A DNA stretch of 48,565 nucleotides. Source: Lentimicrobiaceae bacterium (GTDB lineage: Bacteria; Bacteroidota; Bacteroidia; Bacteroidales; F082). The translations under genes and the position numbers were made by a program. The notes below the pieces were generated by a model. It was not told where the DNA came from. It did not search any database and saw nothing but the letters and a program-made list of their open reading frames with translations. Shown here piece after piece: positions 2,547 through 40,900 of the stretch (positions are counted from its first letter, which is position 1; each line of letters begins with the position of its first letter). The stretch lies in the NCBI GenBank assembly GCA_015061365.1, contig SUWS01000015.1, positions 1 to 48,565 on the forward strand. Direction: 5' to 3'.

Positions 2547-2801
2547 TCACTTATTATCTCTCCTACATTTGGCGTAAACTATACCCATACCCGCCATTAA
2601 CAATAGTCCTGTACTTATTGGTACACTTTCAGCCGGATAATTATAATCTAAACCATGAGACGGAGGCAGCATTATCAACTGATTCCATTCACTGTCTTTC
2701 TCTTCTCTATATTCGTATTGATATGAAAAAAAGACATCTGATTGTGCATTTATGCAAACATTAAATCCTATGGTCAATATCACCAGCATATATTTCTTCA
2801 T
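2547..2801 (-). CDS. Small secreted protein with C-terminal hydrophobic-basic tail (cassette copy 1)
   Basis: This 84-residue protein has an N-terminal signal peptide (MKKYMLVILTIGFNVCINAQ). A short Asp/Glu/Tyr-rich middle follows, then the C-terminal sequence VPISTGLLLMAGMGIVYAKCRRDNK. That tail has the layout of a sorting or anchoring signal: a Pro-containing turn, a ~15-residue membrane segment, then basic residues. It closely matches the tail of the 88-residue protein at 26953-27219. Both follow a T9SS surface protein that shares a C-terminal module. The tail resembles the PID-CTERM or exosortase type of signals known in this phylum, but no sorting enzyme is present here. I start at the second codon (ATG at 2799-2801) rather than the GTG before it. 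Function unknown. Confidence 0.75.
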   Translation of the reverse strand: MKKYMLVILTIGFNVCINAQSDVFFSYQYEYREEKDSEWNQLIMLPPSHGLDYNYPAESVPISTGLLLMAGMGIVYAKCRRDNK

Positions 2802-2819
2802 CACATCACTTTTGTTAAA

Positions 2820-2875
2820 GGTTCAAAGTTTAAGGTTCAAGGTTCGGTTCCCCTAAACTTTAAACCTTAAACTTT
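2820..2875. repeat. Heptamer array, inverted halves (hairpin-forming)
   Basis: Eight consecutive 7-nt units: GGTTCAA, AGTTTAA, GGTTCAA, GGTTCGG, TTCCCCT, AAACTTT, AAACCTT, AAACTTT. The last three are roughly the complement of the first three, so the array can fold on itself. It fills the gap between the surface protein gene and the small downstream gene and may act as a weak terminator or mRNA 3' stabiliser. Confidence 0.8.
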
Positions 2876-2883
2876 ATACGATA

Positions 2884-5874
2884 TTATTCAACAATCACTT
2901 TGCGTGTCTTAACTCCATTATCATCAGTAATTCTTACAATATAGATTCCCACATTAAATTCAGAAACATTCTTTCTTACTTCTTTATCTGTTGTCTCTAA
3001 CTTCATGACATCTCTTCCAAGAATATCATAAATATCTATCAAAGCCGCACCTTTAATATTACCGACAACCAAATCTCCGTTATCAATATATATATAGTTC
3101 TCACTATCGCTAATCTCGTTAACAGAATCAACGTCATATAGTTTAATAACAAAACGATTAGGATTATCATTAGTCGTAGCAATGAAAGTATATTCATCCA
3201 CAAGCATATTTGTAACATTTCCTGTCTGACTATCTACAAGATAAATGTGTTCAAAGCCTCTATTGTCAGAGTTGATGGTAATAGTATACTCTCCCATAGT
3301 ATTCGCTTTGAATGACAATGGTATATCTTTTATATTGTCATCAAGCATAGCTACTGCATAATTGGCATCATCGACAGGAAGATAAATCATAGGAATGTCC
3401 TGATTCTGATGATTCACCTTCTCCAATGCCACGCCATCTTCGAATACAGCAAAGGCCTTATCTTCATATTCATTGTTATTCACAGTTATAGCGAGGATGT
3501 CGACACTTGATTTTTGTGACGGTTGGGTGTTGGTCTTTTTGATTTTAACATCACCTTCTTTAGATGTCTTCACCAAGATACCTTGTCCTGGAGCAATAGG
3601 AATATCATCTGAGATTTTTGCGCCCCAAGCTCCAGCATTCGACAAAGTATAATAACCCGCTGCAAGATTATTATCATCAATAGCTGCTCCAACACCTTTA
3701 TAAATATTATGTGTAAATGGATTTCCTATCAGATGGAAACCTGACAAGGCGATATTCTCAGTCTTGGAAAGATGATAAGTAACATCATCCCCGTTCAATT
3801 CACCAGCAAATGACAAGGTTGCGTCGTATTCATTAGCATAAAGATAGCCTCTACCATTTTCAAGATTAGCGAAACTATTGGAAGATTGTTTTACATTCTG
3901 CCATACCGATGTCGGTTCATCATAACGATAAAGGTCGTAATTATTTGTTGTCGGTATCAGACTTTCCACATCAGACAAAGCGACATTACCCATAAGAGGA
4001 GAACTAATAGTATACCAAGACTCATTAGTAGAACCATAACCTTCAATTTCTTTTTCCAAAGTTGCTTTTACCCCTGCATTGTTGTGAATAAGTTGTCCAC
4101 CTTCTTTGATGACAAGGTTATCGACATCAGAGCAACCAATTAGTCCATTGATCGCAAGTATCGCTCCATCCTCGATAGTGATTTTGTTGGTTATACTTAC
4201 ATTCTCCCATGTAGTATTTGTCGCAATTGTCTGAGATTGCGGAATATCTATATCTGTACAATAATAACTTGTTCCTTCTGCCTTGTAAAAATGGTATGTC
4301 TGATTTTTAATATTTGTCGGGAAAGATCCTGAAGCCGTCAGTTTATATGCTCTCCAATCAATAGCGACATCGCCATCATAATACGCCCCGACAAATCGTT
4401 CCGTGGTCTTGTTATAAAGATAGTCAGGATATACTTCGTCTTCGATCTGGACTGTTTTTATCTCAAATACATTGTTATCAGTATTTGTTCCTATTCTCAC
4501 AGAATTATTGTTACTTCCGGAAGTACAATACAGCCAGTTTTCTTCATCAGCATCAGGATATATTATCATATCGCCATTATCGTAAGATATGTTCCATTTT
4601 ATGTCGTCTGGCACCGCACCGATAATTTTATCATCAGACACCATTAATTCGTATGCCGTCGGCTGTCCGCTGCTACCCTTAATCTGTGACATCGCATAAT
4701 ATTTCTCATCTTTTGAAATTGCGATGATAACGGCATCGGTTGGAGAGAAGGATGTGATTTCCGCCTCGACACAATTATTGTTACTGATAGAGAAGACCGC
4801 ATGGACACTCATATCCTCCTCAATCACCGACGATGTCGTCATCATTACCGGACTAATGTTAGTATTACTGGAGATTTCGTTTTCCGTCCATCCGCTGAAA
4901 GAGAAGCCGTCGGGTGCCGTTGTTACAGGAAGTTCGCCTATCTCATCACCTTTTGGAACCGATATGGTTTCCAACAAACTTCCATTATCATAAAACGACA
5001 CCGTAACAGCTTCAATAATGTTGTAAGTCGCACTTGCTATCCCGCTGTTTGTCATGCCATCTTTCTTTGCAAAAGCCTTAATCGTTGTCGTGGCTGACAC
5101 CTCAATAGGAGAGGAATAGACTTCACTTTCTTCCGTAGGATTATCTCCATTAGTAGTGTAATAGATCGTTGCCCCATCTGTATCACAACTGATGTTCACA
5201 TTCTGCGCCGTGGTATAATCGCCACCCGCCGGATTAAAAGTCGGCAGTGAAACAACAGGTGTCACCTCAGATGATTTCACAAAAATATCGATATAAAAGA
5301 AATAATTCGCTCCTCCCATATTTGAAGCAGAATTGGAATAAGGTGCGAACTTCTCATAGGGTTCACCGCTATTGTATTTTCTAAAGGCAAAACTCCTATT
5401 AGAAGCACCAACATTAGTGATAACAAAGGCACTATAATTAGGAACAGATGTCCCCTCGCCTGAAGTCGACAATGCAATCGTCCATGTAGAGTTAGTTCCA
5501 TTCTTGACAAAATCGGTACCGCTACTGCCATAACCGATCATATCGCCATCAGCATTAATAAAGGTGTAATCTGTTCCCGACATACCGACAGTCCAACAAT
5601 AATCAGATTCATTATTAATAATTTCAGATGGCAGCACCTCCCCTTCCCCAGAGGTATCCGATGAGAACATCACGCCTTGTGGTTTACCGGCTGCAGCGTT
5701 CGTCATTGCATAATAACTCGTCACGGAAAGAGAGTCGTGCCGTGCCGCAAAAATGATAGTACTACCATTTTGAATCTCTGATAAATCTGTGATCCGACGA
5801 TAGTCGTCCTGCGCCTTAATGTTTAATCCTAATATTAAACATACGACTGTTAAAAATAAACATTTTGTTTTCAT
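2884..5874 (-). CDS. T9SS-secreted surface protein with chitobiase-like and InlB-like domains
   Basis: A 996-residue secreted protein. It begins with a signal peptide (MKTKCLFLTVVCLILGLNIKAQ). Residues ~208-287 form a CHB_HEX_C_1-type beta-sandwich (ATIYYTTNGDNPT, TTIKAFAKKDGMTNS). Residues ~290-340 resemble an InlB/Listeria-type repeat (VSFYDNGSLLETI, FSGWTENEI). The last ~400 residues match the C-terminal module of the 697-residue protein at 27315-29408 (YDLYRYDEPTSVW, LENGRGYLYAN, HLIGNPFTHNI, MGEYTI). It ends in a type A T9SS sorting domain (IYDILGRDV, NVGIYIVRITDDNG, TRKVIVE). The ATG at 5872-5874 is preferred because a promoter box lies at 5905-5912. It probably sits on the cell surface or is released. 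Ligand unknown. Confidence 0.85.
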   Translation of the reverse strand: MKTKCLFLTVVCLILGLNIKAQDDYRRITDLSEIQNGSTIIFAARHDSLSVTSYYAMTNAAAGKPQGVMFSSDTSGEGEVLPSEIINNESDYCWTVGMSGTDYTFINADGDMIGYGSSGTDFVKNGTNSTWTIALSTSGEGTSVPNYSAFVITNVGASNRSFAFRKYNSGEPYEKFAPYSNSASNMGGANYFFYIDIFVKSSEVTPVVSLPTFNPAGGDYTTAQNVNISCDTDGATIYYTTNGDNPTEESEVYSSPIEVSATTTIKAFAKKDGMTNSGIASATYNIIEAVTVSFYDNGSLLETISVPKGDEIGELPVTTAPDGFSFSGWTENEISSNTNISPVMMTTSSVIEEDMSVHAVFSISNNNCVEAEITSFSPTDAVIIAISKDEKYYAMSQIKGSSGQPTAYELMVSDDKIIGAVPDDIKWNISYDNGDMIIYPDADEENWLYCTSGSNNNSVRIGTNTDNNVFEIKTVQIEDEVYPDYLYNKTTERFVGAYYDGDVAIDWRAYKLTASGSFPTNIKNQTYHFYKAEGTSYYCTDIDIPQSQTIATNTTWENVSITNKITIEDGAILAINGLIGCSDVDNLVIKEGGQLIHNNAGVKATLEKEIEGYGSTNESWYTISSPLMGNVALSDVESLIPTTNNYDLYRYDEPTSVWQNVKQSSNSFANLENGRGYLYANEYDATLSFAGELNGDDVTYHLSKTENIALSGFHLIGNPFTHNIYKGVGAAIDDNNLAAGYYTLSNAGAWGAKISDDIPIAPGQGILVKTSKEGDVKIKKTNTQPSQKSSVDILAITVNNNEYEDKAFAVFEDGVALEKVNHQNQDIPMIYLPVDDANYAVAMLDDNIKDIPLSFKANTMGEYTITINSDNRGFEHIYLVDSQTGNVTNMLVDEYTFIATTNDNPNRFVIKLYDVDSVNEISDSENYIYIDNGDLVVGNIKGAALIDIYDILGRDVMKLETTDKEVRKNVSEFNVGIYIVRITDDNGVKTRKVIVE

Positions 5875-5935: not shown

Positions 5936-6036
5936 GGTTTTTAACTATTTTTAACTTTTTCGCGGTTAAGTAGCAAGTTAACGGAAAAACACTTACGGTC
6001 AGCGGAATCTATTAGGCAGTCAACGGAATATTACAA

Positions 6037-6078
6037 TTCATAATGCATAATTCATAATGCATAATTCATAATGCATAA
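6037..6078. repeat. Heptamer array, alternating TTCATAA and TGCATAA
   Basis: Six perfect 7-nt units alternate TTCATAA and TGCATAA, making three exact 14-nt repeats. The array lies just upstream of the -7 box at 6094 and occupies the place where a -33 element would be expected. Confidence 0.9.
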
Positions 6079-6093
6079 TTATCACAATTTTAC

Positions 6094-26884: not shown

Positions 26885-26926
26885 AAAATAAAAGGTGCCA
26901 CTCATCATGAGCAGCACCCTTTAATT
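26885..26926. terminator. Bidirectional terminator between holA and the small anchored protein gene
   Basis: AAAGGTGC at 26891-26898 pairs with the GCACCCTTT side around 26914-26922 with one bulged C. An inner CTCAT/ATGAG stem (26901-26911) continues it. A-rich sequence on the left and TTTAATT on the right give U-tracts in both directions. Confidence 0.75.
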
Positions 26927-26952
26927 ATGCATTTTGAATTATGCATTATGAA
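26925..26952. repeat. Heptamer array abutting a stop codon
   Basis: TTATGCA, TTTTGAA, TTATGCA, TTATGAA: four 7-nt units that end at the base before the stop codon of the small protein gene (26953-26955). Confidence 0.88.
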
Positions 26953-27219
26953 TTATTTTTCACGTCTTTTAAGTCCGTATGCTAATCCCATACCGGCGAG
27001 TAACAACAAACCTGAGCCTAAAGGTGCACTTTGGTCTGTATACATTCCCATGCCCGGCATTCCTGGAAATACAATGTCATCTGCCGAACCGTCACGATAT
27101 TGACCACTTGGTGTTGTTGAGAAGAAACCGTCAGTAGCTTGAGTATTGTCAAAATATTGTGCATTTGCACCCAATCCTAATACTATTACGAGTGATAATG
27201 TTACTAATACTTTTTTCAT
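26953..27219 (-). CDS. Small secreted protein with C-terminal hydrophobic-basic tail (cassette copy 2)
   Basis: An 88-residue protein with a signal peptide (MKKVLVTLSLVIVLGLGANA). A ~40-residue middle rich in Asp, Gly and Pro follows (FPGMPGMGMYTDQ), then the C-terminal tail APLGSGLLLLAGMGLAYGLK plus RREK. The tail is the same type as in the 84-residue protein at 2547-2801: proline and small residues, a membrane segment with GLLL(L/M)AGMG, then basic residues. It follows a T9SS surface protein in the same way, after a hairpin-forming heptamer array. It may be anchored in the membrane or cut and attached by a sortase-like enzyme. No promoter box is seen before it, so read-through from the upstream gene is likely. 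Function unknown. Confidence 0.78.
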   Translation of the reverse strand: MKKVLVTLSLVIVLGLGANAQYFDNTQATDGFFSTTPSGQYRDGSADDIVFPGMPGMGMYTDQSAPLGSGLLLLAGMGLAYGLKRREK

Positions 27220-27245
27220 TTTTATTCTTTTATTTTTCTGGCTTC

Positions 27246-27308
27246 GAGCCTTGAGCCATGAGTTATGAGCGTTTCATGCTTGCCCATTGCTCATCGCCCA
27301 TTGCTCAG
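27246..27308. repeat. Inverted heptamer arrays between the 697-residue protein and the small protein gene
   Basis: Nine consecutive 7-nt units: GAGCCTT, GAGCCAT, GAGTTAT, GAGCGTT, TCATGCT, TGCCCAT, TGCTCAT, CGCCCAT, TGCTCAG. The right half is largely complementary to the left, so the transcript can fold into a long hairpin between the two genes of the cassette. Confidence 0.88.
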
Positions 27309-27314
27309 AGCAAT

Positions 27315-29408
27315 TTATTCAACAACTATCTTTTGTACCTTAACTCCGTTTTCGTCTGTCATTCTGATGATGTAAACGCCAGCTGCGAAATCTGACGTTG
27401 AGATGTTTGCCGATTCAGCGACATTGTATTCTGCCACAGGACGACCAGTCACGTCATAGACGCTGACAACGCCTTGTCCTTCGATATTGTAGATATACAT
27501 CATGCCGTTGTTGATGAACGCGAAGTTTTCGTTATCACCGTCATTGCTATTAGACATAGCTAACTTGATGATGAAACGTTCAGCGTTGTCATTTGATGTT
27601 GCCATGAATGTGTAGTCTTCGATGAGCAAGTTTGTCTCAACGCCAGTGAAACGGTCGACGAGTGTCATCATTGCGTATTCGCAGTTCTGTGCTTCTGCGC
27701 CGATTGTATATTCACCCATTGTTGCAGCCTTGAATGATACAGGAATCTCTGTAACGTCTTGTTCCATCATAGCGATTGCATAGTTCTTGTTATTAACTGG
27801 AACAAACACCATAGGAATTTCAGCGTTACGGTGTTCTATCTTATCCAAACCTACACCTTCGTTAAATGAGACGTAAGCCACGTCGTTATAGTTAGAGTTA
27901 GAAACGTTAACAGCTATTACACCATTATCCGCTGTATTTCTCTTTGAAATTGCAGTTGGATTAATGACCAATGTACCTCCTTTAGCATTTGCCTTGACGA
28001 GAACAGACTCCATCGGAGCGATTGCAGAGCCTGATGTCTTTGCGACAAATCCACCATTAGCTGAGATTTCATAGAAACCGCCTGCGAGTTCTACATCAGG
28101 AATCATGTTGGCATTTGTAATGTTATGTGAGAAAGGATTACCAATCATGTTGAAACCAGCGAGAACATTGTTTTCTGTATAGCTAAGAGGGAATTGTACG
28201 TCACTTACGTTAAAAGCACCTTTCAACTCTACTGTTACGTCATCAGTGTTTGCATAAAGATAGCCGCGACCTAATTCTAATGTTTCATAATCGTTTTGAT
28301 CATCATCATAATAATTCCACATCATTGTTGGTTCATCAAAACGATAAAGGTCGTGAGTGCCAGCAGTTGCTTCTGGGATAACAGCGTTAGCGATAGGAGT
28401 GCTGATTGTTCCCCAGTATGACTGACCGCCTTTGAACGACTTCTTAGCGACACCATTGATTGTTTGAGTATGATAAATCTGACCGCCGTTAAGTTCTACA
28501 TTACCATTAACGACAACATCACCTGCAAGAGTTACGACAGGAGCTTCATAGCCTTCATATTTACAAGCGTCTAATGCGAAAGATTTGGTTCCGTCAATAT
28601 TAGCTTGGATTGTTGAATTGCTGATGTTAACCTTACCGCTGTTGTTTGAAAGAACGTATGAATCTTGGTATTGTTCTATCCATTTATCCAAGTAAGTACC
28701 GTCCAATGTCATGTTCTCGACTTTGAGGTCAGCGTAGTTTTGAACGAGGATATAGAACTTGTCAGCTGCTTCTTCTGCTACGTTCAAACCGCCGTTTTTC
28801 AAAGTGACAGTGTTACCGGCGAGGATTTGGAAACCGTTAGATTCTGTTCCTGTTGAACCTACTGGTTCTGTGAATGAGTAAGTCTTTCCGTTGAAGTCGA
28901 TTGTGACATCTTTGTCGATGACGAGACCAGGACCTTGGGTATTGTTAGTGATAGTGATGACATCACCATCCTCTGCTGCGTTATAAGCATCCTGAAGAGA
29001 ACCATATTTCAGATCCCCGACTTTTGCTACAGAGTAGAAGTGGATTTCTAAATCATAATGTTGTTCAGGAATAAAGGTCAAAGTATTATCGTCAGAGACA
29101 AAATTCAAAATTCTTTGCGATTCATGATCATAAATTCTATACTCGATGAGATCGTTCTTCTGGCCTTGCAACATTAAATAGAATACTTCATCATATTCAT
29201 CCAAGAAAGCCTTGCCGCGAAGTTCTTCTCCACAGAATGCGCCTAACTCAATATTCGCACCGACATTGGTATCGTCTATGCTGAGTACTATTGTAGACGA
29301 AGTGTTTGTTTCGTATGTCACTGGTTTTCCCCAATGGGATTGATACTGTGCAAATGCACTGGCACAAAGTGCAATAAATAAAGTTAAAACTGTTAGTCTT
29401 TTTTTCAT
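27315..29408 (-). CDS. T9SS-secreted beta-helix surface protein, 697 residues (protein A)
   Basis: A secreted protein with signal peptide MKKRLTVLTLFIALCASAFA. Residues ~22-125 form an N-terminal domain with LGAFCGEELRGKAFLDE, shared with the two giant proteins. One beta-helix-like module follows (KYGSLQDAYNAAEDGDVITI, VIDKDVTIDFNGKTYSF). The last ~400 residues match the C-terminal module of the 996-residue protein (HDLYRFDEPTMMW, LELGRGYLYAN, FNMIGNPFSHNI). It ends in a T9SS sorting domain (SVYDVTGRPVAEYN, AAGVYIIRMTDENG, VQKIVVE). So it joins the N-terminal domain of the giants to the C-terminal module of the 996-residue protein. Probable adhesin or carbohydrate-binding surface protein; ligand unknown. 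Confidence 0.85.
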   Translation of the reverse strand: MKKRLTVLTLFIALCASAFAQYQSHWGKPVTYETNTSSTIVLSIDDTNVGANIELGAFCGEELRGKAFLDEYDEVFYLMLQGQKNDLIEYRIYDHESQRILNFVSDDNTLTFIPEQHYDLEIHFYSVAKVGDLKYGSLQDAYNAAEDGDVITITNNTQGPGLVIDKDVTIDFNGKTYSFTEPVGSTGTESNGFQILAGNTVTLKNGGLNVAEEAADKFYILVQNYADLKVENMTLDGTYLDKWIEQYQDSYVLSNNSGKVNISNSTIQANIDGTKSFALDACKYEGYEAPVVTLAGDVVVNGNVELNGGQIYHTQTINGVAKKSFKGGQSYWGTISTPIANAVIPEATAGTHDLYRFDEPTMMWNYYDDDQNDYETLELGRGYLYANTDDVTVELKGAFNVSDVQFPLSYTENNVLAGFNMIGNPFSHNITNANMIPDVELAGGFYEISANGGFVAKTSGSAIAPMESVLVKANAKGGTLVINPTAISKRNTADNGVIAVNVSNSNYNDVAYVSFNEGVGLDKIEHRNAEIPMVFVPVNNKNYAIAMMEQDVTEIPVSFKAATMGEYTIGAEAQNCEYAMMTLVDRFTGVETNLLIEDYTFMATSNDNAERFIIKLAMSNSNDGDNENFAFINNGMMYIYNIEGQGVVSVYDVTGRPVAEYNVAESANISTSDFAAGVYIIRMTDENGVKVQKIVVE

Positions 29409-29428: not shown

Positions 29429-29671
29429 AAGTTTTTAATATTATTAATTTTATTTAACTTTCGTTTTCAGTTTCGAGCCGTGAGCCGTGGGCACTTCGAC
29501 AAGCTCAGTGACCACAGTCCACAACCCTCAACTAATCATTCATCATTAATTTTCAGTTTTCAATTTTCAACTTTCAATTCGTCAGACGCACCAATTACAT
29601 ATTGTTTATTTCCAAAGGTGTAATGTGTCACGTCTCTACAAAAATTTTCAATTTTCAAATTTCAACTTTCA
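29429..29671. repeat. Intergenic block copy 1 (leader repeat of the surface island)
   Basis: About 240 bp nearly identical to 37739-37978 and to 48168-48373. Contents in order: an AT-rich ~40 bp next to the start codon; GAGCCGT heptamers around a CACTTCGACAAGCTCAGTG palindrome (29475-29532); TTTTCA-type heptamers (29549-29576); the CGTCAGACG...CGTCTCTAC hairpin element (29580-29639); four more heptamers (29644-29671) ending at the base before the stop codon of the next gene. No TANNTTTG box lies near the start of protein A. Confidence 0.85.
29580..29639. repeat. MITE-like hairpin element, copy 1
   Basis: About 60 bp with outer GACG/CGTC and inner ATTACA/TGTAAT inverted repeats, ending CGTCTCTAC. 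Four copies occur in the island (29580, 37887, 48314, 48409). The right end matches the GTAGAGACG-type inverted ends I remember from other Bacteroidota and cyanobacterial genomes; that comparison is from memory. Confidence 0.7.
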
Positions 29672-29672
29672 A

Positions 29673-32600
29673 TTACTTAACGATGAGTCTGCAATTTTGT
29701 ACGTTGCCGTTATTAGTAATTCTGATTACGTAAATACCCGCTGTTTCAAGAGCGTCGATAGTATCAACATTTTGGTATTCGGCAATCTTGACTCCGAGTG
29801 CGTTGAACACTTCAACAATGTCGCATACAGATCCAAGATTTACTTCTCTACCTGTTGTTGTTGGGTTAGGATAGATGTTGACTTCACTCATTGCAGACTC
29901 ACCGATACCTGTAGTTCCGCGTGAGAGTAAGTATGGATTACCTATCGAACCTACGACTGCATCATTCGAATAGTTCATTCTGTTGTTGAGATCGTGCTCT
30001 TCGCCTGTTGCGAGGTCGTAGCATTTGAATGTCATCTCTTCAACCTCTTCACCGTGGATTGTGAGGAAGAACATATAAGCGTCTAACGATTCGATATAGA
30101 CTGGACGTGCGCTGCCGCGTACTTCACCGCCTACGAATGCCGCTACTTCATAGTCGCCACCTTTAACATCAAGCACCGCTACCATTGTCATATTGTTCGC
30201 ATATTGCGATGAAGCCGGTACCCAGTAGTTGTTCTCTGATGTGATGTTCGCTTTCACAGCCTCTCTTGTAGAAGGATATGAATATGTGAATGTTCCAGCA
30301 ATGCTTCTCTGATACATATAACCCTCTCCTGGATTCATCGATCTGAGGTTACCATACCATCTGCCATCTTTATATTCAGCGAATTGATCTCTTGACTTAA
30401 TGTAGTCACCTTCTTTTGCAAAGCCTGAGAACACTGTTCCTACATTTACAGGCTCGCTCAAAGGATAACCTAAATAGTTCCAGTTCACTTCCAATTCGAT
30501 AGGATAGTGTGTCGGATCTACAACCGCTCCTGTAAGCTGTATTGGAAGAGTTTCTCCGCTTGCGAGGCTTGTGTTGACTTTATACATATCGGTCACTGAT
30601 GTAGCACGAAGATTACCTGACCAGGATTGTTCTTCTGTGTTATAATTAGTGAATTCATTTTGATTCTTGATCTGTACACCGTATGCGCCCAATCCGTTCT
30701 TCAGCTGTGCAAGGATGTCTGAACCTGTATTACCTTCTACATAATGTGAAACCCAGTTCCATTTTGTTTCAAATGTGATAACCTGAGCAGGGGTTACTTC
30801 CCATACGTTTGCCGATGTCTCAACTGCACCATAACCATCAGCGCAGAAGTTTGTATGACCGCCTGTTTCTGCTGCGTTGTCCTGTGGATTGAAACCATAG
30901 AACGTACCACCGTAAATTTGAACTTCAGCCGAACCGTCATTATAGTTAGCGTCAATACAGTTGATCATGTATGTTGCGCCGTAGTCACTCTCATTGACTT
31001 TGAACTCACCGCCTTTGATTGTGAGTAAACCTTTCGTTACTGAAGCGACTGTTACTGTACCTGTATAAGTACCGCTTTCTATTGTGAGGTTACCTGCTGA
31101 TGAACCGTCTGATGCTCCGAGGATGAAGTTATAGCCTGTAGTGTTCATCTTGCCGTTCTTAATAGTGACGTTCGCACCGCCTTGGATACGGATAGCTGGT
31201 GTTAACGAACCTTCAACATCTTTTTCTGCAAAGTCGAAGTTGATATTGCTGTTCTTATAGTCTTCATCGCTGTCAACAAGTAGGGTTGTGTTTCCAAGAT
31301 CGATTTCCTTGAGCAATGTCACAGTCATAACATGATCTGCATTCTCATTATACTTACGGGCTGCCACAGCTTCTTCAAGTGTTGCATAACCTACTTCGTT
31401 GGTGTAATAATTTCCAGATTTATGTTGCTCATCAACGTAAGCTACAGCGTCTACCATTGTCCACAATTCTTCAACAGCATCATATTTGAGAGCCTTCTCT
31501 TTTTGAGCCATCACTTCAAATGGATAGAATTGGTGGAGAATGTCATCGTTGAATGTACCGTCGTTGACGATGATATTCTTTGTATTCTGTCCCGAAGCGT
31601 TGAAGATCCATGGTGAGCCGTTGCTTAATGTACCGACATTTTCAAGTATGAATTTACCACCGTTGACAGTTACTTTTTCATCGTCATTAGAATAAATCAA
31701 ACCTCTACCATTACCTCCAACATTGAGTTTATAATTACCGTTATTGATTGTGATACTACTGCCGTCATATTGAAATACTAATGAATATACTTCAACAGCA
31801 TTGTCAATCCACATGGTACCTGTTTTTTCTTCAGAGTTATCCTCGATTGTAAGATTAGCCTCGTTTTCTGTTGTTATCATTCCATGCACATAATTAACTT
31901 CTAACTCTTCTCCTAATATAGCTTTTACCATATAGCCGTTTAGGTCAATAGTTATAGTTTTGCCATCAACATTAATGAAAGATCTAAATTGACCATCGCA
32001 CATTTGTTCAGCATCTTCATAGCCTAATTCAATATCTTTCAAAACAACAATTTCATCACCATCTTGTGCCTCATCGATAGCTGCCTGGAGTGATTCGTAT
32101 TTAGTCTCACCGATAGCAGCGACGTAATCACATGGTTTGAGGTAATATTTACCGTCTCCATAAGCTACTTTATAATCATCAAATGTTGTTGTTACAGTAG
32201 AACCTTCTGGAGCTGTAAGTGTAGCGTCTGTTGCTGTGAGAACATATTTCGCATATTGGCTTGATGATAATGTACCAACTGTGTTAGCGCCTTCGAAGTT
32301 GAAAGTCTGTACTCCTGAATAACCTGAACGTTCATAAATATTAATTGTTGTGATTTCACAGTTCTTGAGGTTGATGGTCTTTGAAGCGTAGTTCTGAATG
32401 TAAAGACCATTGGTTACATTTGTCATTGTGACATTTTCGAGAGTTGCGGTTGTGCCATATACCCAGTGGAAACCGTAGTTGCCGCCATCAACAGTAACGT
32501 TCTTAACCACGACTGTTGGGGTTGACTTGTTAGCGTACAAGAAACCGTAACTGTAGTTGTTTACAGTACAGTTTTCAACAGTAATGCTCTTAATTCTGTC

Positions 32601-35600
32601 TGTTTTAATAGCATAATACGTACCATTAACGAAGTTCACGTTCTTAACGGTCATCGCTGTAGAAGTACCAGAAACTGCGATATTACCAGTGTATTCGAAA
32701 TTAGCACCATCAATTGTCAAACTCTTGCTGATTGTCACGTCTTCCGTTACATTAGCGATGAGTGTTACTGTCTTGCCTGCTGTCGCTGCTTCTACTGCTG
32801 CTGCTACTGTCTTGTATTTTACTTCACCTACTTGAGCTACATAAACGCCTTCTATAACTTCATAGCAATCGCCGTGTTCGCATTCTATTTTCTCTGCCAT
32901 GTAGCCTTCAGCGCAGAAGTTTGTACCTGCACCCTCAGCAGCGTTGTTTTCAGGATTGAATTGGTGGAATTTACCGCCATAAATTTCAACATTTGCTGAA
33001 TCATCATTATAGTTAGCGTCTATACAGTTAATCATATATGTTGCACCATATTCGCTGGCATTAACTTTGAACTCGCCACCGTTGATTTTGAGTAAACCTT
33101 TTGTTACAGAAGCCACTGTTGTAGTGCCGTGGAATGTACCGCTTTCTATTGTGAGGTTACCTGCTGAAGAACCGTCTGATGCGCCGAGGATAAAGTTGTA
33201 GCCTTCTGTGTTCATGTTACCGTTCTTCACTGTGACATTTACATTACCTTGGATACGGATAGCTGGGTTTGCTGAACATGTAACTTCTAATCCGCCGAAA
33301 TCGATTGTAACGTCTCTTTCAACAACAGCAGTAGATGTTATCTTATGAGCTTTGATAACTGTTACGGTATTGTTAACTGGGTTTCCAAGTGGATTGACAG
33401 CTTCTGCCAATGTTGCATAACCGACATTACGAGCACTGGCATTTGTTGATGTTGCTTTTTCTACAGCGTATGCTACAGATTCAACAACTGTCCATGTTCC
33501 TTCTTCGTCGCCATTGTATTGGAGAGCCAATGTTTCTGGAACATAGACTTCGTTTGCCCAGAACTGATGGTTGATGTCAGCGTTGAATGTACCGCCGTTG
33601 ACGATAACATTTCTTTGGTTTTTACCGTTAGCATTGAATATCCATGGATTATAGTTGCTACCTGGACCGTCTTCTCCAACATTACCAAGAGTAAATGTTC
33701 CACCATTGATAATGACAGCATCGTCTCCTGCCGAGTGAACAAGATTATCCCCTGCTTTTTCCAAAGTATAATTACCACCATTTATAGTCAGTTTAGAACC
33801 CGTACCTTCATCATAACATGAAATCAACGAATATACATTATTGACAGTTGAATTATCAATCTTAACTGTTGAGGTATTACCATTGTCATTAAGTGTAAGA
33901 TTACCACCTTTTTGTATTGAGAACATGGCAATCAAACCAAAACCGCCAAGTGGTTCAATATCGAGCACATCTCCTGTAATGTTATAGCCATTTAAATTGA
34001 TAGTGATAGCTTTACCCTCAACCTTGAAGAATGTGTTATATTTATCACTACCGTTAGCATCTTCAAGAATAACCACATCATCTTTACCAACGTTTATATC
34101 GCCAATAACTTCAATCACATCACCATTTTGTGCTGCGTCGATAGCTTCCTGGAGTGATTCGTATTTAGTCTCACCGATAGCAGCGACGTAGTTAGGTTGT
34201 CTGAGGTAATATTTTCCATCTGCGTAATCTACAATATGACCTGCAACTGAAGTTGTAACATTTGCACCTTCTGGAGCTGTAAGAGTTGCGCCTTCTGCTG
34301 CGAGAACATATTTCGCATATTGACTTGCTGATAATGTACCGACTGTGTTAGCACCTTCAAACTTGAAAGTCTGTACTCCTGAAGAACCGCTTCTTTCCCA
34401 GATAGCGATAGATGAGATGGTGCTGTTCTTGACTTTGATAGTCTTTCCAGCATAGTTCTGGATGTAAAGACCATTAGCTACATTTGTCATGGTGACGTTT
34501 TCGAGAGTTGCTGTTGTACCATATACCCAGTGGAAACCATAGTTGCCACCTTCAACTGTCACATTCTTAACAACGACTGTTGGAGTTGATTTGTTAGCGT
34601 ACAAGAAACCATATCCGTAGTTGTTAACAGTACAGTTTTCAACGGTAACACTCTTAATTCTGTTTGTTGTGATGGCATAACCTGTACCGTTAACGAAATT
34701 GACATTCTTAACTGTTATTGCTGTAGTATTACCAGAAACTGAGATATTACCTGTATATTGGAAGTTTGCACCGTCAATTATTACGCTCTTATTAACTGTA
34801 ACGTCTTCTGTTACGTTAACAAGGAGTTCGATAACATCACCTGCTTGTGCTGCTGCTACTGCTGCTGCCACGCTTGGATATATTGCTTCTCCAATCTTAG
34901 CGACAGCACCTATCGCTGTATATTCACCGTTGTTATAAACTACAACATAGCCTTCTCCTGTTTCAATTGAACTTTCTAAACCTGCGCCAGCTTTAAGTGT
35001 TGTTGTTGGATCGAGCCAGATTTGAGCTGTAGCTGTGCTTGGGAAGTTAGTAACAGTCACATTGGTGTAAGTTACTGTAGGAGTTGCACTGCCGCCATTG
35101 TTAACTACCAATACGTAGTTAGCTTCGTTTTCTGCTGGTGCTGCCATATTTGCGCAGTTGACATTGAGATTTTCAAGTGTAACGTCAGCGTATGCGTTGA
35201 ACATCCATTTTACGTTTGTATTCTCTGCAATAGCGATAGTACCGTTCTTCAATGTAACTGTATTGTTCTTAAGAAGTTGGAATCCTTGTGATTCTGTTCC
35301 TGTTGAACCTACAGCTTGGTTGATGGTATAAGTCTTACCGCCGAAATCAACTGTGATGTTCTTATTAATTACGAGACCTGCGCCTGTAGCGTCAGCTATG
35401 AGTTCTACTGTCTGACCTGCTGTTGCTGCTTCTACTGCTAATGGAAGTGTACGATAATAAACGTCACCTATCTTAGCGACAGCTGGAACTGCTGTATATT
35501 CACCGTTGTTATAAACTACAACATAACCTGCTTCTGTCTTAATTGAATTTTCCAAACCTGCGACTGCCTTGAATGTTGTTGTCGGGTCGAGCCAGATTTG

Positions 35601-37730
35601 CTCTGTTGATGGGAAGTTGGTTACATTTACTCCGCTATAATTAACTGTAGGTGTTGCACCGCCGCCATTGTTGACAACCAAGACGTAGTTGGCTTCGTTT
35701 GCAGCAGGAGCTTTCATGTTAGCGCAGTTTACATTGAGACCTGCAAGTGTCACATCTGCGTATGCGTTGAACATCCATTTCACGTTTGTTCCTTCTGCGA
35801 TAGCGATGTAACCGTTTTGCAATATAACTGTATTGTCTTTCAACAATTGGAAACCTTGTGATTCTGTTCCTGTTGAACCTACAGCTTGGTTGATGGTATA
35901 AGTCTTACCGCCGAAATCGACTGTGATGTCCTTGTTGATCTTGAGACCTGCACCTGTAGCGTCAGCTATGAGTTCTACTGTCTGACCTGCTGTTGCTGCT
36001 TCTACTGCTAATGGAAGTGTACGATAATAAACGTCACCTATCTTAGCGACAGCTGGAACTGCTGTATATTCACCGTTGTTATAAACTACAACATAACCTG
36101 CTTCTGTCTTAATTGAATTTTCCAAACCTGCTACTGCCTTGAATGTTGTTGTCGGATCAAGCCAGATTTGCTCTGTTGATGGGAAGTTGGTTACATTTAC
36201 TCCGCTATAATTAACTGTAGGTGTTGCACCGCCGCCGTTGTTGACAACCAAGACGTAGTTGGCTTCGTTTGCAGCAGGAGCTTTCATGTTAGCGCAGTTT
36301 ACATTGAGACCTGCAAGTGTCACATCTGCGTATGCGTTGAACATCCATTTCACATTGGTGTTTTCAGCTATTGCGATGTAACCGTTTTGCAATGTAACTG
36401 TGTTGTTCTTGAGCAACTGGAATCCTTGTGATTCCGTTCCTGTTGAACCTACAGCTTGGTTGATAGTATAAGTGAAACCGCCGAAATCGACTGTGATGTT
36501 CTTGTTGATCTTGAGACCTGCGCCTATAGCATTGTCGAGAAGTGTTACTGTCTCGCCTGCTTGTGCTGCTTCAACTGCTTCTACCAATGTTTCATAACCT
36601 TGACCTGTTGTAGTGTTACGTGCTACATATTCTCCTTCTTTAACAGTGTTGTATGTTGTTCCGTCAACTACTTCTGTTGTTGGGATGTAACCGTCAGCGC
36701 ACCATGCTTCAGCGATTGGATTTGTGAATGAACCGTCTTTAATGTTGAGGTTTGTCGGAATTGTTGAAGAGACTTCAATTTCACCTTTTATGATACCTTC
36801 TGTTTCAACATTGACTGTAGGAACCTCATAACCTGCTGATGAATAGTCATAGACATCGAATGCTACTTCATCTGTTGTGATGTTTGTTTTGCCAACGAGG
36901 TTCACATTACCGCTGTTGTTTGACAATGCGTATAAGATATGATCTGTATTGTCATAGAGGTTCATTTTGCTCAATGTCAAGTGAGCGTAGTTCTGGATGA
37001 GCACCTTGATTTGTTTGCTGCCTTCAACTGCTGCTGTTGATGTCAATGTACCGTTCATCAAAGTGACGGTTTTGTTCTTCAAGATTTGGAAACCGAGTGT
37101 TTCTGTTCCTGCTGAACCGACTGCTTGGTTGATGGTATAAGTCTTACCGCCGAAATCGACTGTGATGTTCTTGTCGATGACAACGCCTGCGCCTGTAGCT
37201 GATTGAAGCAATGTTACTGTTTCACCTGCTTGAGCTGCGTTGACAGCTGCTTGAAGTGTACCGTATTTAACATTGTTAACTTCAGCGATAGATGTAAAGT
37301 TAATCAGGTTATCTCCTGCATAAATACCTGTCTGTGTATTCAGAAATTCAATATCACCTATCTTCTTATTATCTTCAAACACTATGTCAGGATATGGGTA
37401 GAATAATTCTCTACCTGCTGAATGATCATAGAATCTGAATGAAATAACTTCGGCAGGATCGCCTGCTGTAAGAATGTTACCGTGAATTACAAGATAAACC
37501 ATGTTCATCTGAGTCTCGTCTGGTCTTACTGTACCACGTAATTCATCGCCACAGAAAGCAGCGATTTCAACATTAGCACCTTGAATTGTGCCATCAAGTA
37601 CGATTTGGGTAATCATCGTCATTGTACTTTCACAATGAGTGTCAGGGACACCCCAGTATGATGCCTGTCCGAAACCTATCGAACAGAACATCATCATCAA
37701 AAACGTAAGAATAAAACTCTTTGTTCTCAT
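29673..37730 (-). CDS. Giant T9SS-secreted beta-helix repeat protein, 2685 residues (protein B)
   Basis: Signal peptide MRTKSFILTFLMMMFCSIGF plus GQ. Residues ~23-150 carry the domain with IAAFCGDELRGTVRPDE. About ten modules follow, each starting like KIGDVYYRTLPLAVEAA, then a hydrophobic strand and ITVDFGGKTYTINQAVGS, as in right-handed beta-helices. Modules 2-4 are ~190-residue tandem copies nearly identical in DNA (about 34900-36560). Modules 5-7 and 8-10 form a duplicated triplet. From ~2318 there are two W-rich repeats (WNWVSHYV, WNYLGYPL, SWSGNLRA). A second copy of the N-terminal domain (VAAFVGGEVRGSARP, ~2530) and a T9SS type A domain (VNIYPNPTTTGREVNLGSVC) end it. Probably a long fibrous adhesin. 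Confidence 0.85.
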   Translation of the reverse strand: MRTKSFILTFLMMMFCSIGFGQASYWGVPDTHCESTMTMITQIVLDGTIQGANVEIAAFCGDELRGTVRPDETQMNMVYLVIHGNILTAGDPAEVISFRFYDHSAGRELFYPYPDIVFEDNKKIGDIEFLNTQTGIYAGDNLINFTSIAEVNNVKYGTLQAAVNAAQAGETVTLLQSATGAGVVIDKNITVDFGGKTYTINQAVGSAGTETLGFQILKNKTVTLMNGTLTSTAAVEGSKQIKVLIQNYAHLTLSKMNLYDNTDHILYALSNNSGNVNLVGKTNITTDEVAFDVYDYSSAGYEVPTVNVETEGIIKGEIEVSSTIPTNLNIKDGSFTNPIAEAWCADGYIPTTEVVDGTTYNTVKEGEYVARNTTTGQGYETLVEAVEAAQAGETVTLLDNAIGAGLKINKNITVDFGGFTYTINQAVGSTGTESQGFQLLKNNTVTLQNGYIAIAENTNVKWMFNAYADVTLAGLNVNCANMKAPAANEANYVLVVNNGGGATPTVNYSGVNVTNFPSTEQIWLDPTTTFKAVAGLENSIKTEAGYVVVYNNGEYTAVPAVAKIGDVYYRTLPLAVEAATAGQTVELIADATGAGLKINKDITVDFGGKTYTINQAVGSTGTESQGFQLLKDNTVILQNGYIAIAEGTNVKWMFNAYADVTLAGLNVNCANMKAPAANEANYVLVVNNGGGATPTVNYSGVNVTNFPSTEQIWLDPTTTFKAVAGLENSIKTEAGYVVVYNNGEYTAVPAVAKIGDVYYRTLPLAVEAATAGQTVELIADATGAGLVINKNITVDFGGKTYTINQAVGSTGTESQGFQLLKNNTVTLKNGTIAIAENTNVKWMFNAYADVTLENLNVNCANMAAPAENEANYVLVVNNGGSATPTVTYTNVTVTNFPSTATAQIWLDPTTTLKAGAGLESSIETGEGYVVVYNNGEYTAIGAVAKIGEAIYPSVAAAVAAAQAGDVIELLVNVTEDVTVNKSVIIDGANFQYTGNISVSGNTTAITVKNVNFVNGTGYAITTNRIKSVTVENCTVNNYGYGFLYANKSTPTVVVKNVTVEGGNYGFHWVYGTTATLENVTMTNVANGLYIQNYAGKTIKVKNSTISSIAIWERSGSSGVQTFKFEGANTVGTLSASQYAKYVLAAEGATLTAPEGANVTTSVAGHIVDYADGKYYLRQPNYVAAIGETKYESLQEAIDAAQNGDVIEVIGDINVGKDDVVILEDANGSDKYNTFFKVEGKAITINLNGYNITGDVLDIEPLGGFGLIAMFSIQKGGNLTLNDNGNTSTVKIDNSTVNNVYSLISCYDEGTGSKLTINGGNYTLEKAGDNLVHSAGDDAVIINGGTFTLGNVGEDGPGSNYNPWIFNANGKNQRNVIVNGGTFNADINHQFWANEVYVPETLALQYNGDEEGTWTVVESVAYAVEKATSTNASARNVGYATLAEAVNPLGNPVNNTVTVIKAHKITSTAVVERDVTIDFGGLEVTCSANPAIRIQGNVNVTVKNGNMNTEGYNFILGASDGSSAGNLTIESGTFHGTTTVASVTKGLLKINGGEFKVNASEYGATYMINCIDANYNDDSANVEIYGGKFHQFNPENNAAEGAGTNFCAEGYMAEKIECEHGDCYEVIEGVYVAQVGEVKYKTVAAAVEAATAGKTVTLIANVTEDVTISKSLTIDGANFEYTGNIAVSGTSTAMTVKNVNFVNGTYYAIKTDRIKSITVENCTVNNYSYGFLYANKSTPTVVVKNVTVDGGNYGFHWVYGTTATLENVTMTNVTNGLYIQNYASKTINLKNCEITTINIYERSGYSGVQTFNFEGANTVGTLSSSQYAKYVLTATDATLTAPEGSTVTTTFDDYKVAYGDGKYYLKPCDYVAAIGETKYESLQAAIDEAQDGDEIVVLKDIELGYEDAEQMCDGQFRSFINVDGKTITIDLNGYMVKAILGEELEVNYVHGMITTENEANLTIEDNSEEKTGTMWIDNAVEVYSLVFQYDGSSITINNGNYKLNVGGNGRGLIYSNDDEKVTVNGGKFILENVGTLSNGSPWIFNASGQNTKNIIVNDGTFNDDILHQFYPFEVMAQKEKALKYDAVEELWTMVDAVAYVDEQHKSGNYYTNEVGYATLEEAVAARKYNENADHVMTVTLLKEIDLGNTTLLVDSDEDYKNSNINFDFAEKDVEGSLTPAIRIQGGANVTIKNGKMNTTGYNFILGASDGSSAGNLTIESGTYTGTVTVASVTKGLLTIKGGEFKVNESDYGATYMINCIDANYNDGSAEVQIYGGTFYGFNPQDNAAETGGHTNFCADGYGAVETSANVWEVTPAQVITFETKWNWVSHYVEGNTGSDILAQLKNGLGAYGVQIKNQNEFTNYNTEEQSWSGNLRATSVTDMYKVNTSLASGETLPIQLTGAVVDPTHYPIELEVNWNYLGYPLSEPVNVGTVFSGFAKEGDYIKSRDQFAEYKDGRWYGNLRSMNPGEGYMYQRSIAGTFTYSYPSTREAVKANITSENNYWVPASSQYANNMTMVAVLDVKGGDYEVAAFVGGEVRGSARPVYIESLDAYMFFLTIHGEEVEEMTFKCYDLATGEEHDLNNRMNYSNDAVVGSIGNPYLLSRGTTGIGESAMSEVNIYPNPTTTGREVNLGSVCDIVEVFNALGVKIAEYQNVDTIDALETAGIYVIRITNNGNVQNCRLIVK
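34900..36560 (-). repeat. Three tandem 570-bp coding repeats in protein B
   Basis: Positions 35281, 35851 and 36421 begin the same sequence (CCTTGTGATTC, then TTCCTGTTGAACCTACAGC), an exact 570-bp period, 190 codons. Units starting 35401 and 35971 differ at only a few positions over ~380 bp, silent sites included. The copy nearer 34900 has diverged more and carries extra codons. Confidence 0.88.
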
Positions 37731-37738
37731 TTGATTAA

Positions 37739-37978
37739 GTTTTTAATATTATTAATTTTATTAACTTTCGTTTTCAGCTTCGAGCCGTGAGCCGTGGGCA
37801 CTTCGACAAGCTCAGTGACCACAGCTCATAACTCTCAACTAATCATTCATCATTAATTTTCAGTTTTCAATTTTCAACTTTCAATTCGTCAGACGCACCA
37901 ATTACATATTGTTTATTTTCAAAGGTGTAATGTGTCACGTCTCTACAAAATTTTCAATTTTCAAATTTCAACTTTCAA
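37739..37978. repeat. Intergenic block copy 2, upstream of protein B
   Basis: Same order of elements as at 29429-29671: AT-rich leader, GAGCCGT heptamers with the CACTTCGACAAGCTCAGTG palindrome (37782-37840), TTTTCA heptamers, the hairpin element (37887-37946), and further heptamers up to the stop codon of protein C. Only scattered differences from copy 1. Confidence 0.88.
37920..37949 (-). promoter_or_regulatory. Promoter-like sequence inside the hairpin element (upstream of protein B)
   Basis: Leftward, TTTG (37946-37949), an 18-nt spacer and CACCTTTG (37920-37927) resemble the -33/-7 pattern with one mismatch in the -7 box and a spacer one base short. The same arrangement exists in the copies upstream of proteins A and C. 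It would give a ~180-nt leader. This is a weak match and an inference. Confidence 0.3.
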
Positions 37979-40900
37979 TTACTTAACGATGAGTCTGCAA
38001 TTTTGTACGTTGCCGTTATTAGTAATTCTAATTACGTAAATACCCGCTGTTTCAAGAGCGTCGATAGTATCAACATTTTGGTATTCGGCAACCTTGACTC
38101 CGAGTGCGTTGAACACTTCTACAGTGTCGCATACAGATCCGAGATTTACTTCTCTACCTGTTGTTGTCGGGTTAGGATAGATGTTGACTTCACTCATTGC
38201 AGATTCGCCGATACCTGTAGTTCCGCGTGATAATACGTATGGATTACCTATTGAACCTACGACTGCATCATTCGAATAGTTCATTCTGTTGTTGAGATCG
38301 TACTCTTCGCCTGTAGCGAGGTCGTAGCATTTGAATGACATCTCTTCAACCTCATCACCGTGGATTGTGAGGAAGAACATATAAGCGTCTAACGATTCGA
38401 TATAGACTGGACGTGCGCTGCCGCGTACTTCACCGCCTACGAATGCCGCTACTTCATAGTCGCCACCTTTAACATCAAGCACCGCTACCATTGTCATATT
38501 GTTCGCATATTGTGATGAAGCTGGTACCCAATAGTTGTTCTCTGATGTGACGTTTGCTTTCACAGCCTCTCTTGTAGAAGGATATGAATATGTGAATGTT
38601 CCAGCAGTGCTTCTCTGATACATATAACCCTCTCCTGGATTCATCGATTTGAGGTTACCATGCCAGGTGCCATTGTAATATTCAGCGAATGCGTCTTGCG
38701 ATTTCACATAGTCACCGTTTTCTGCAAAGCCATAGAACACTGTTCCTACATTTACAGACTCGCTCAAAGGATAACCTAAATAGTTCCAGTCCACAGCCAA
38801 TTCGATAGGATAGTGTGTCGGATCTACAACCGCTCCTGCAAGCTGTATTGGAAGAGTTTCTCCGCTTGGGAGGCTTGTTTTGACTTTATACATATCGGTC
38901 ACTGATGTAGCACGAAGATTACCTGACCAGGATTGTTCTTCTGTGTTATAATTAGTGAATTCATTTTGATTCTTGATCTGTACACCGTATGCACCCAATC
39001 CGTTCTTCAGCTGTGTAAGGATGTCTGAATCTGTATTACCTACTACGTAATGTGAAACCCAGTTCCAACGTTCTTCGAGTGTGATGATCTGAGCAAGGGT
39101 TACTGTCCATGTGCCATCGCCATTGTTTTGTGATACATAACCCTGAGGGCACCATTCTTGAACGTCTTCTGTATATGTACCGCTTGCAATGCTTACTTCA
39201 AGAACGTTTTCTTGTACCTTGATACAATCGATACCACCGTTTACTATAACATTCTCTGTATTAGGATTTACAAAGAATTTACCATCTTGAATCACAATAG
39301 CCGTTGCCTGTGGGCCTGCATTAACTGTCAAGTCTGCACCAAGAATCAAGGTTGCATTGTATGTAGCGCGAAGTGTACCACCAGCAGCACCGTTACCATT
39401 TACAGTACCATTTGTGATTGTGAGTTCAGTACCATTACGGTAAGCAATGAACGCTGTTCCCGTTGAAGTGTATGTGAAATCACCAAGGTCGATGGTAATC
39501 TTCTTCGCTGTGTTCAAATCTACTGTAACTTCAGCATCATTGACATTATCGAGAAGGTAAACTATATCGCCTGTTACAGCTGCGCTTGTAGCGTCAGCGA
39601 CTTTCGCGAAATATCTGTCACCGATACGTGCTACCGCACCTCTCACTGTCCATACATTTGGTGCAGATTCGTATGCGCCATAACCTTCAGCGCAGAAGTT
39701 TGTGCCAGCACCTTCAGCGGCGTTGTTCTGTGGATTGAAGTTATGGAATGTACCGCCCTTGATTTCAACTTGTGCTGTACCGGCGTTATAGTATTCGTCT
39801 TTACAATTGATGAGGTATGCGTAATCGTAAGTTTCTACATCAGTGATTGAGAAGTCACCGCCTGTGATGTTCAATTTACCTAATGTAACCTGAGCTACAG
39901 TTGTCTCACCCACATAAGTACCGTTTTCGATTGTCAGGTTACCTGCTGATGAAGCATCTGATGCACCGACAACGAAGACGTAATCATCATTCTTGATTGT
40001 ACCTTCTCCGGTGATTGTCACCTCAGCGTCATTTTGAACACGGATTGCAGGATAAACGTTTTCTGCTGTGATAATAGTTCTGCCTTCGATGTTGAGCGCT
40101 GCATTTTCTGTCAAGACAACAGGTTTCAAGATTGTCATAGTCTCGCCTTCGACATGACTTACAGCAAGAGCGTCGATAAGTCTGAAGTACATCATCGTAG
40201 CGACATTATCTTTTGTAACCTTAACTTCTGCATCTTTGATATAGATAACAGGGTCTGTTTCTTTGTTCTTATTAATTGTTGCACCATCGGCAATAATAAT
40301 ATTGTGATTTGTAAGAACTCTGTTGTTAAGTTCCTTATCGCCTACGTAGAATGCATAAATATCGTAACTGCTATTGATTACTTCAATTTTTGAATTTTCA
40401 TCAACGTTAACTGTCACATTATCTGCGCCAATTTCAAAGGCTGCAAAATGAGCGTTGCTTGTTGAAGTAGCTTTGATTGTAGAATTTACAACATTCACAA
40501 CAGAATATTCTCCATTAACATAGATCGCTGAACCGCCGTTGTAATATTTTTCAACCCAAGAATTAGTTACATTAATCGTAACTTTTCCCTTGGCATAGAT
40601 ACCGCTCATATCAGCATAAAGTTTAGATCCGTTGTTTACATTTATCACTGACTCTGCTGCTGAAGATTCTACAAATACAGAATATACTGAGTTGACATCG
40701 ACATTATCGAATGTTACGTTTGCTTTTTTAGCAATATGAACACCATGTGTCTGAGAACCGTTATTGTATCCCGTGCTTTCTATTACAAGATTTTTAAAGA
40801 TCACATCGTCATTAGTATTGACTTTAACGGCAGGAATACCATTAGCGTTTACTGTCAACTTATAATTATTTTCACTACCATTTAATGTAACGCCTTTAGC

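Follow-up and report, generated by a model that had tools for sequence, protein, structure and literature searches.

C-terminal sorting tails, exosortases and cargo proteins of the type IX secretion system (T9SS) are already known as kinds. In the PEP-CTERM/exosortase and GlyGly-CTERM/rhombosortase systems, substrates combine a signal peptide with a tail of the same tripartite layout as LPXTG signals, and many substrates share one enzyme (PMC3237569, PMC1569441). Joint presence of signal and enzyme, together with adjacency of their genes, served as earlier criteria for matching sorting signals to enzymes (PMC3237569), adjacency being found when a sole target exists. Here we analyze a DNA stretch of 48,565 nucleotides (the window), comprising positions 1 to 48,565 of contig SUWS01000015.1 of a Lentimicrobiaceae bacterium (assembly GCA_015061365.1; genome of 2.94 Mb in 115 contigs, 96% complete), in which each of two genes for large T9SS cargo proteins has next downstream a gene encoding a small secreted protein (mini-protein) whose tail is laid out like an exosortase sorting signal.

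An exosortase-family protein, XrtF, is found in the T9SS-bearing Bacteroidota species Flavobacterium johnsoniae, where XrtF and T9SS genes emerged from the same colonization screen (PMC10936215, PMC12188702); the targets of XrtF are stated as not yet known (PMC12188702), and its substrates as still to be sought (PMC10936215). The related pair of PID-CTERM and exosortase X (XrtX) is named in NCBIfam, and a literature search, mostly without subscription papers, returned no paper on PID-CTERM and only unrelated matches for XrtX.

Results

Both gene pairs of the window lie on the minus strand at the positions reported in a preliminary description of this DNA, the large gene preceding a gene for a protein of 84-88 residues. 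The large gene of the first pair (2884-5874) encodes 996 residues, ending in a module that comprises a pre-CTD region and the C-terminal domain, CTD (2884-4104), with the T9SS type A sorting domain (TIGR04183) at 2887-3066; chitobiase C-terminal and Fn3-associated domains are also matched. Mini-protein 1 (2547-2801; 84 residues from an ATG, or 85 from an alternative GTG start at 2804) consists of a signal peptide ending in NAQ, an exported segment of ~40 residues and a C-terminal tail (2550-2621) in which PISTG, a variant form of the P[LI]G[SN]G motif of the family, is followed by a hydrophobic stretch and CRRDNK. In the second pair, the large gene (27315-29408) encodes 697 residues, with the module at 27315-28505 and the sorting domain at 27318-27497, and mini-protein 2 (26953-27219; 88 residues) again has a signal peptide ending in NAQ, an exported segment and a C-terminal tail, PLGSGLLLLAGMGLAYGLKRREK (26956-27024). 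The sorting domains score 44.7 and 42.7 bits, respectively, against a curated TIGR04183 cut-off of 23, which classes both large proteins as T9SS type A cargo.

As had been described, the two large proteins have a C-terminal module of ~400 residues in common (166/408 identical, 41%; E 3e-92); outside it, no segment of the two aligns significantly. The tails had been called matching as well, and although the two mini-proteins align weakly with each other (E 0.025), both fall in one clear family. In the PDB, the module profile matches the C-terminal region of RemZ (8gl8; E 2e-15) and of RemA (8gl6; E 2e-10); folding the module from the two-sequence alignment gave a mean predicted local distance difference test score (pLDDT) of 40.5, usable for the CTD only.

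The preliminary description recognized the pairing; two points escaped it, namely that the matching tail is laid out like a sorting signal for an exosortase, and the presence in this genome of a gene for such an enzyme. An alignment of 70 mini-proteins from six species, kept from 85 frames, gave the tail consensus A-P-[LI]-G-[SN]-G-L-L-x-L-T-A-L-G-A-G-Y-A, followed by Lys/Arg. The search pattern itself required the motif's proline and last glycine, but neither the tyrosine at motif position +15 (69/70) nor Lys/Arg at +19 (65/70). The last 10 residues contain a mean of 3.9 Lys/Arg, an 'AQ' lies inside the first 36 residues in 66/70 mini-proteins, and the exported stretch measures 36-67 residues, with a median of 40 (66 proteins). 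Judged on sequence, with no signal-peptide program used, the family thus has the layout of an exosortase-type substrate, namely signal peptide, motif, helix and basic end, and the Gln that would head the protein once its signal peptide is removed agrees with the Q-rule of Bacteroidetes (PMC5837995, PMC10653852). Comparison of 56 members with NCBIfam tail models yielded weak matches (E up to 1) to LPXTG (24 members), GVDTG (16), PID-CTERM (15) and PEP-CTERM (7), of which PID-CTERM is the most telling (best E 1e-4). Membership of the LPXTG family (TIGR01167) is not indicated, since the motif is PLGSG and member P0002 scores 14.6 bits against a cut-off of 15.9, the best E among the 24 matching members being 0.016.

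A single exosortase-family match was found in the genome, a protein of 196 residues encoded on a contig other than the window's (C92), which scores 57.4 bits against the TIGR04178 cut-off of 23 and so belongs to the exosortase/archaeosortase family; PF09721 remained below its cut-off (20.3 vs 25.7). The mini-protein family occurs in all 36 genus genomes searched, our own included, with 1 to 25 model matches each among the matches listed, and 35 of the 36 carry one enzyme match (partial in G028), the exception being G001 (89% complete). Many tails thus stand against one enzyme across the genus. Cys104, Arg145 and His164, which we take to be the catalytic residues, are invariant across the 52 rows of the alignment, 49 of which are distinct. 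When the exosortase was compared with named genomes, 21 loci were obtained, mostly from uncultured Bacteroidales or Lentimicrobiaceae, nine from the ruminant gut and one from horse.

The cassette had been thought to be present twice; this genome in fact holds 13. A genome search with the C-terminal module alone gave 13 strong loci (E below 1e-35), each accompanied by a mini-protein, in 12 cases downstream on the same strand, with spacings from a 4-nt overlap up to 163 nt, and in one case (C62:140303-142549) fused in frame, N-terminal to the large protein. The genome encodes 17 tail proteins: 13 at modules, three directly 5' of lipoprotein genes (two on C94, one on C59) and one cut by a contig end (C44). 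Since the genome has at least 139 TIGR04183 matches (150 of 160 candidates scored), the pairing is limited to one subset of T9SS cargo; a rough Fisher test, in which 13/13 was set against an assumed 0/126, gives P about 2e-18.

The pairing extends to five other species of the genus (G009, G011, G015, G017 and G026). With modules of 140 bits or less left out, 50 of 64 modules among the matches listed are directly followed by a mini-protein, with match-to-match gaps of 0-220 nt (median 28.5); of the 14 unpaired modules, three are interrupted by a contig end, two are tandem neighbors of a paired module, and the remaining nine have no tail that the search pattern recognizes. Conversely, 50 of the 79 tail matches in these species stand directly after a module, so that homologues of the small protein are found mostly with the T9SS module rather than away from it. 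The other 29 comprise 11 fused in frame to a lipoprotein, six directly 5' of a lipoprotein gene, one second tail in tandem, one beside a module remnant, two solitary, one at a contig start and seven weak matches (about 30 bits or less). Because 17 of these 29 adjoin or are fused with a lipoprotein, the T9SS pairing is not exclusive, and the conserved pairing proposed in the preliminary description holds in this genome, in the five species and, in a related form, across Bacteroidia (below), but with lipoproteins as additional partners. Excluding weak matches, the five species have 9-20 tails per genome, as against 17 here.

Fusions recur with both kinds of partner. Each of the 11 lipoprotein fusions in the five species has a lipobox-like cysteine shortly after the tail, and five additional lipoprotein fusions were found. 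The T9SS fusion on C62 has a second signal-peptide-like stretch after the tail; further complete T9SS fusions occur in G022 (2721 residues) and G030 (1626 residues), and one in G012, partly masked, has the same second signal peptide. At a locus beside a gene that, on its sequence, we take to be enolase-like, two species have the pair as separate genes and a third as a fusion. The second signal peptide would direct the chain outward again, and a fusion would in this way oblige both parts to be made in equal amounts and exported at one site. Lipoprotein partners and fusions were seen at loci L083, L085, L086, L088-L098, L294 and L296-L298, and many of them end in VRLV. Eight lipoprotein partners or fusions matched no Pfam family at E 0.01; of three searched at Pfam E up to 1, one had an Lcl_C match, below cut-off.

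Within genomes, module and mini-protein distances correlate (0.42; 0/2000 permutations as high). The correlation drops to 0.14 when recent duplicates are removed, indicating that the cassette duplicates as a unit; strict cognate fitting of module and mini-protein is not supported beyond recent duplicates. In addition, a stretch of ~175 nt over the junction and the mini-protein signal peptide (G000:C53, 27155-27330) is 95-97% identical in the C85, C67 and C88 cassettes, while the modules of these four cassettes are merely 60-68% identical, which suggests gene conversion or a recombination site.

Related tails and enzymes were then considered at the level of the class, in an even sample of 149 Bacteroidia genomes (PID-CTERM threshold, E up to 0.01). 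PID-CTERM was found in 76 genomes and an XrtX-model match in 93, with both in 75, PID-CTERM only in one (a weak match), the enzyme (Xrt) only in 18 and neither in 55 (Fisher P 1e-23). Nearly half of the above-cut-off PID tails (42/86) lie within 600 nt of an Xrt gene on the same strand. For the 44 tails away from Xrt, 40 regions were taken and 38 open reading frames (ORFs) located; for 32 of the 38, an ORF on the same strand lies upstream at no more than 450 nt, TIGR04183 is matched by 23 of the 24 upstream ORFs that resemble T9SS cargo and by none of the remaining eight, and 23/38 tails thus stand directly 3' of a T9SS gene. Among tails beside Xrt, of which 21 of 42 were examined, 10 follow a T9SS-CTD protein (9/17 and 1/4), as judged with a CTD model built here from tail-linked proteins. 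Against an assumed base rate of 5-7% of genes, which we estimated from 11 genomes having between 87 and at least 150 TIGR04183 matches each, these counts have binomial P values of 9e-21 to 1.5e-17 (23/38) and 2e-8 to 5e-7 (10/21).

The class-wide partners have more in common with those of the genus than the CTD. The genus module profile matches a profile of the 24 class partners with E 1e-27 over 273 columns, and the genus pre-CTD model matches 17/24 tail-linked and 3/18 unlinked T9SS ORFs (P 7e-4), a comparison that left out ten linked ORFs of this genome, which served as controls. Near the PID tail gene of three loci (L229, L232 and L249) lies a membrane protein of ~155 residues whose start is alike in each, a possible further component. 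In one locus (L257, in G168), the PID-CTERM gene adjoins a gene that, judged by its start, resembles a polysaccharide chain-length regulator, with Xrt nearby, a hint that the tail may be linked to exopolysaccharide there.

The hairpin-forming heptamer arrays reported between the genes of the window pairs (2802-2883 and 27220-27314) proved to be real, with folding energies of -26.0 kcal/mol (z -4.8) and -34.1 kcal/mol (z -5.1) that 0/200 shuffles equaled, and near-copies of the second occur in the C85, C67 and C88 cassettes. Of the 11 junctions folded in this genome (those of the window and of other cassettes in L043-L054), 10 carry such strong hairpins, at -21 to -34 kcal/mol and built from several different heptamers. 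The hairpin was nevertheless rejected as part of the conserved unit: it is absent from one cassette (C62:117 kb), the genes of another (C5:60 kb) overlap by 4 nt, 28 of the 50 match-to-match gaps in the five other species do not exceed 30 nt, and the genome has some 40 copies of a related 14-nt repeat. This AATTCATAATGCAT-like repeat is seen in the window at 6035-6080 and 26923-26956 and elsewhere on many contigs. Heptamer-rich repeats also occur at 29543-29674, 37855-37980 and 48282-48462, the last with a 95-nt unit, and flank giant ORFs of 2685 (29673-37730) and 3392 residues (37979-48157).

A terminator-like hairpin with a T-tract lies directly 3' of mini-protein 2 (26889-26923), and no terminator-like site was found between the genes on the coding strand in either window pair. 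Co-transcription of the genes of each cassette is therefore likely, as far as can be judged from the DNA; terminator-like sites in the region (two) are in no excess over the shuffle mean of 1.9.

Discussion

The directly observed pairing, tail layout, single exosortase gene with its Cys, Arg and His residues, class-wide co-occurrence and fusions are, taken as a whole, best explained by an exosortase-processed companion co-produced with a surface protein, which it would probably help to anchor or assemble; to this reading we assign a probability of about 0.6. The cassette would yield two secreted products from adjoining, probably co-transcribed genes, the large one being T9SS type A cargo and the small one a dedicated substrate of the cell's exosortase. 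The signal peptide would take the mini-protein into the inner membrane and be cut before the Gln of the AQ, and the C-terminal helix would hold the mini-protein there with its basic end in the cytoplasm. The exosortase would then recognize P[LI]G[SN]G and the helix, cut there and hand the peptide of ~40 residues to an envelope acceptor, the released peptide becoming a near 1:1 companion of its partner, most likely for surface anchoring or assembly of the latter. The parts of this proposal are not equally firm: the mini-proteins are very probably exosortase substrates and probably functional companions of their T9SS or lipoprotein partners, and anchoring or assembly as the use of the companion is offered tentatively, as is the suggestion of the preliminary description that the small protein anchors, chaperones or caps the large one.

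Several points weigh against this proposal. Cleavage and the acceptor are both features that we infer, any direct contact of the mini-protein with its partner would be conjecture, and because signal peptidase alone could part the fused proteins, the fusions are no proof of exosortase cleavage. Exosortase X (NF046081) is the best subfamily for the enzyme, at 90.4-91.1 bits, below the cut-off of 170, and PID-CTERM (NF046080) scores at best 23.8 bits here and 22 in a relative, with a cut-off of 26. The enzyme model (pLDDT 78.8) has no PDB match at E <= 0.001. In 24 genomes outside the genus, the genus-tail model is matched in five, the enzyme in eight and both in three, which is no significant association (Fisher P 0.29). 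The pairing has exceptions as well: a weaker 14th module of this genome (91 bits, C5:69 kb) is without a tail protein, no tail was found by the pattern used in the regions read around nine of the 14 unpaired modules of the five species, and 15/38 PID tails away from Xrt and 11/21 beside it are without a demonstrated T9SS gene upstream, the latter figure, like the comparison of 17/24 linked with 3/18 unlinked ORFs, depending on a CTD model that derives from tail-linked proteins. Finally, co-variation of module and mini-protein is weak after removal of recent duplicates (r 0.14) and is absent in two of six species.

In one alternative, the mini-proteins would be exosortase substrates that act alone, for example in exopolysaccharide or biofilm formation, with T9SS adjacency reflecting co-expression only. 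Such a role would agree with the tails that are solitary or beside lipoproteins, with the weak co-variation of module and mini-protein, with the chain-length-like gene (judged by its start) beside tail and Xrt at L257, and with the tie of PEP-CTERM/EpsH to exopolysaccharide genes (PMC1569441); we consider it unlikely, however, as the shared pre-CTD subset and the single-ORF fusions exceed the needs of general co-expression. A second alternative is an inner-membrane-anchored periplasmic escort or chaperone of the cargo, whose tail would be a plain anchor on which no exosortase acts. The hydrophobic, basic-ended tail seen in the 70 mini-proteins aligned and the co-translation of the partners in fusions would suit an escort, and for T9SS substrates of type B a partner of their own is commonly encoded just downstream (PMC12618676). 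A plain anchor, however, would not require the conserved PLGSG and tyrosine, and the related PID tail accompanies Xrt-type genes in 75 of 76 genomes, leaving this explanation quite improbable.

Release of the ~40-residue segment by the exosortase as a soluble peptide signal has in its favor the shortness of the exported part (median 40 residues) and weak matches to pheromone precursors (AimP, 20/56 members; Phr, 7/56), which are below cut-off and, where their position was shown, fall within the signal peptide. We judge a signaling role to be very improbable, given its poor fit with genomes that hold many divergent copies next to surface-protein genes; no recurring receptor-like neighbor was noticed in the loci read, in which no aimed search was made. 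Hardly credible, in our estimate, is hitch-hiking, in which one chance pair of neighbors was duplicated as a unit. The 95-97% identical junction stretch of four cassettes and the within-genome distance correlation of 0.42 (0/2000 permutations) are what duplication would leave, but in many distantly related Bacteroidia, too, tails of this kind come after T9SS genes, which by itself makes this history unlikely, and lipoprotein pairs and fusions also occur.

The exosortase-processed companion suggests that two separate surface-sorting systems, T9SS and exosortase, work together. A broader and more speculative extension, which we think somewhat doubtful, is that across Bacteroidota the two are arms of one surface-assembly route, in which a subset of type A cargo with a shared pre-CTD domain would each have an exosortase-processed mini-protein that is conjugated to an envelope glycan or lipid and fixes or assembles the cargo at the surface, a set that would have expanded to some 9-20 tails per inspected genome in this gut genus and spread to lipoproteins. 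Cooperation of the two sorting systems, if true, would add a step to surface building by these gut and environmental bacteria.

Relation to known systems

Among the literature matches listed, which consist of titles and abstract beginnings with subscription papers mostly outside the search, there is no description of a coupling between T9SS and an exosortase, nor of the PLGSG branch, its expansion or the lipoprotein fusions. The nearest relative is the pair of PID-CTERM and exosortase X (NF046080 and NF046081), which shares with the present family a tiny protein with a P-x-[DG]-x-G motif, a helix and a basic end, as well as the co-occurrence of an XrtX-like gene, and in other Bacteroidia PID-CTERM often follows a T9SS gene. 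The two differ in that the motif is PLGSG here and PIDGG there, with both model cut-offs unmatched here, in that 9-20 copies occur here (six genomes inspected) as opposed to mostly one to three, and in that the copies here pair with T9SS modules or lipoproteins.

With PEP-CTERM/exosortase and GlyGly-CTERM/rhombosortase, the present system has in common the tripartite tail, the signal peptide, the many-to-one relation to the enzyme and adjacency in the case of a sole target; the tail there forms the end of the functional secreted protein itself, whereas here it is carried by a mini-protein beside a large protein with a T9SS signal (PMC1569441, PMC3237569). The order of a cargo gene followed by a gene for a dedicated envelope partner recalls T9SS type B substrates and their PorP/SprF shuttle (PMC12618676). 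In the window, however, the CTD is of type A (TIGR04183) and the downstream partner has ~85 residues (84-88) with one C-terminal helix, unlike a type B substrate with a SprF-like shuttle. The PorP/SprF shuttle is a barrel and far larger than the mini-protein. The module profile is matched by the C-terminal regions of RemZ and RemA, RemZ being a type A T9SS substrate (PMC10994853) in whose structure the CTD alone is well resolved.

Like XrtF of F. johnsoniae, the enzyme described here is an exosortase-family protein of a T9SS-bearing member of the Bacteroidota, although it scores 90 bits with the XrtX model and 53 bits with that of XrtF (cut-off 90), and so is nearer to the former. The mini-proteins therefore provide numerous concrete candidate substrates for an XrtF-related Bacteroidota exosortase, and as these candidates adjoin T9SS cargo genes, they link two sorting systems that are usually treated apart.

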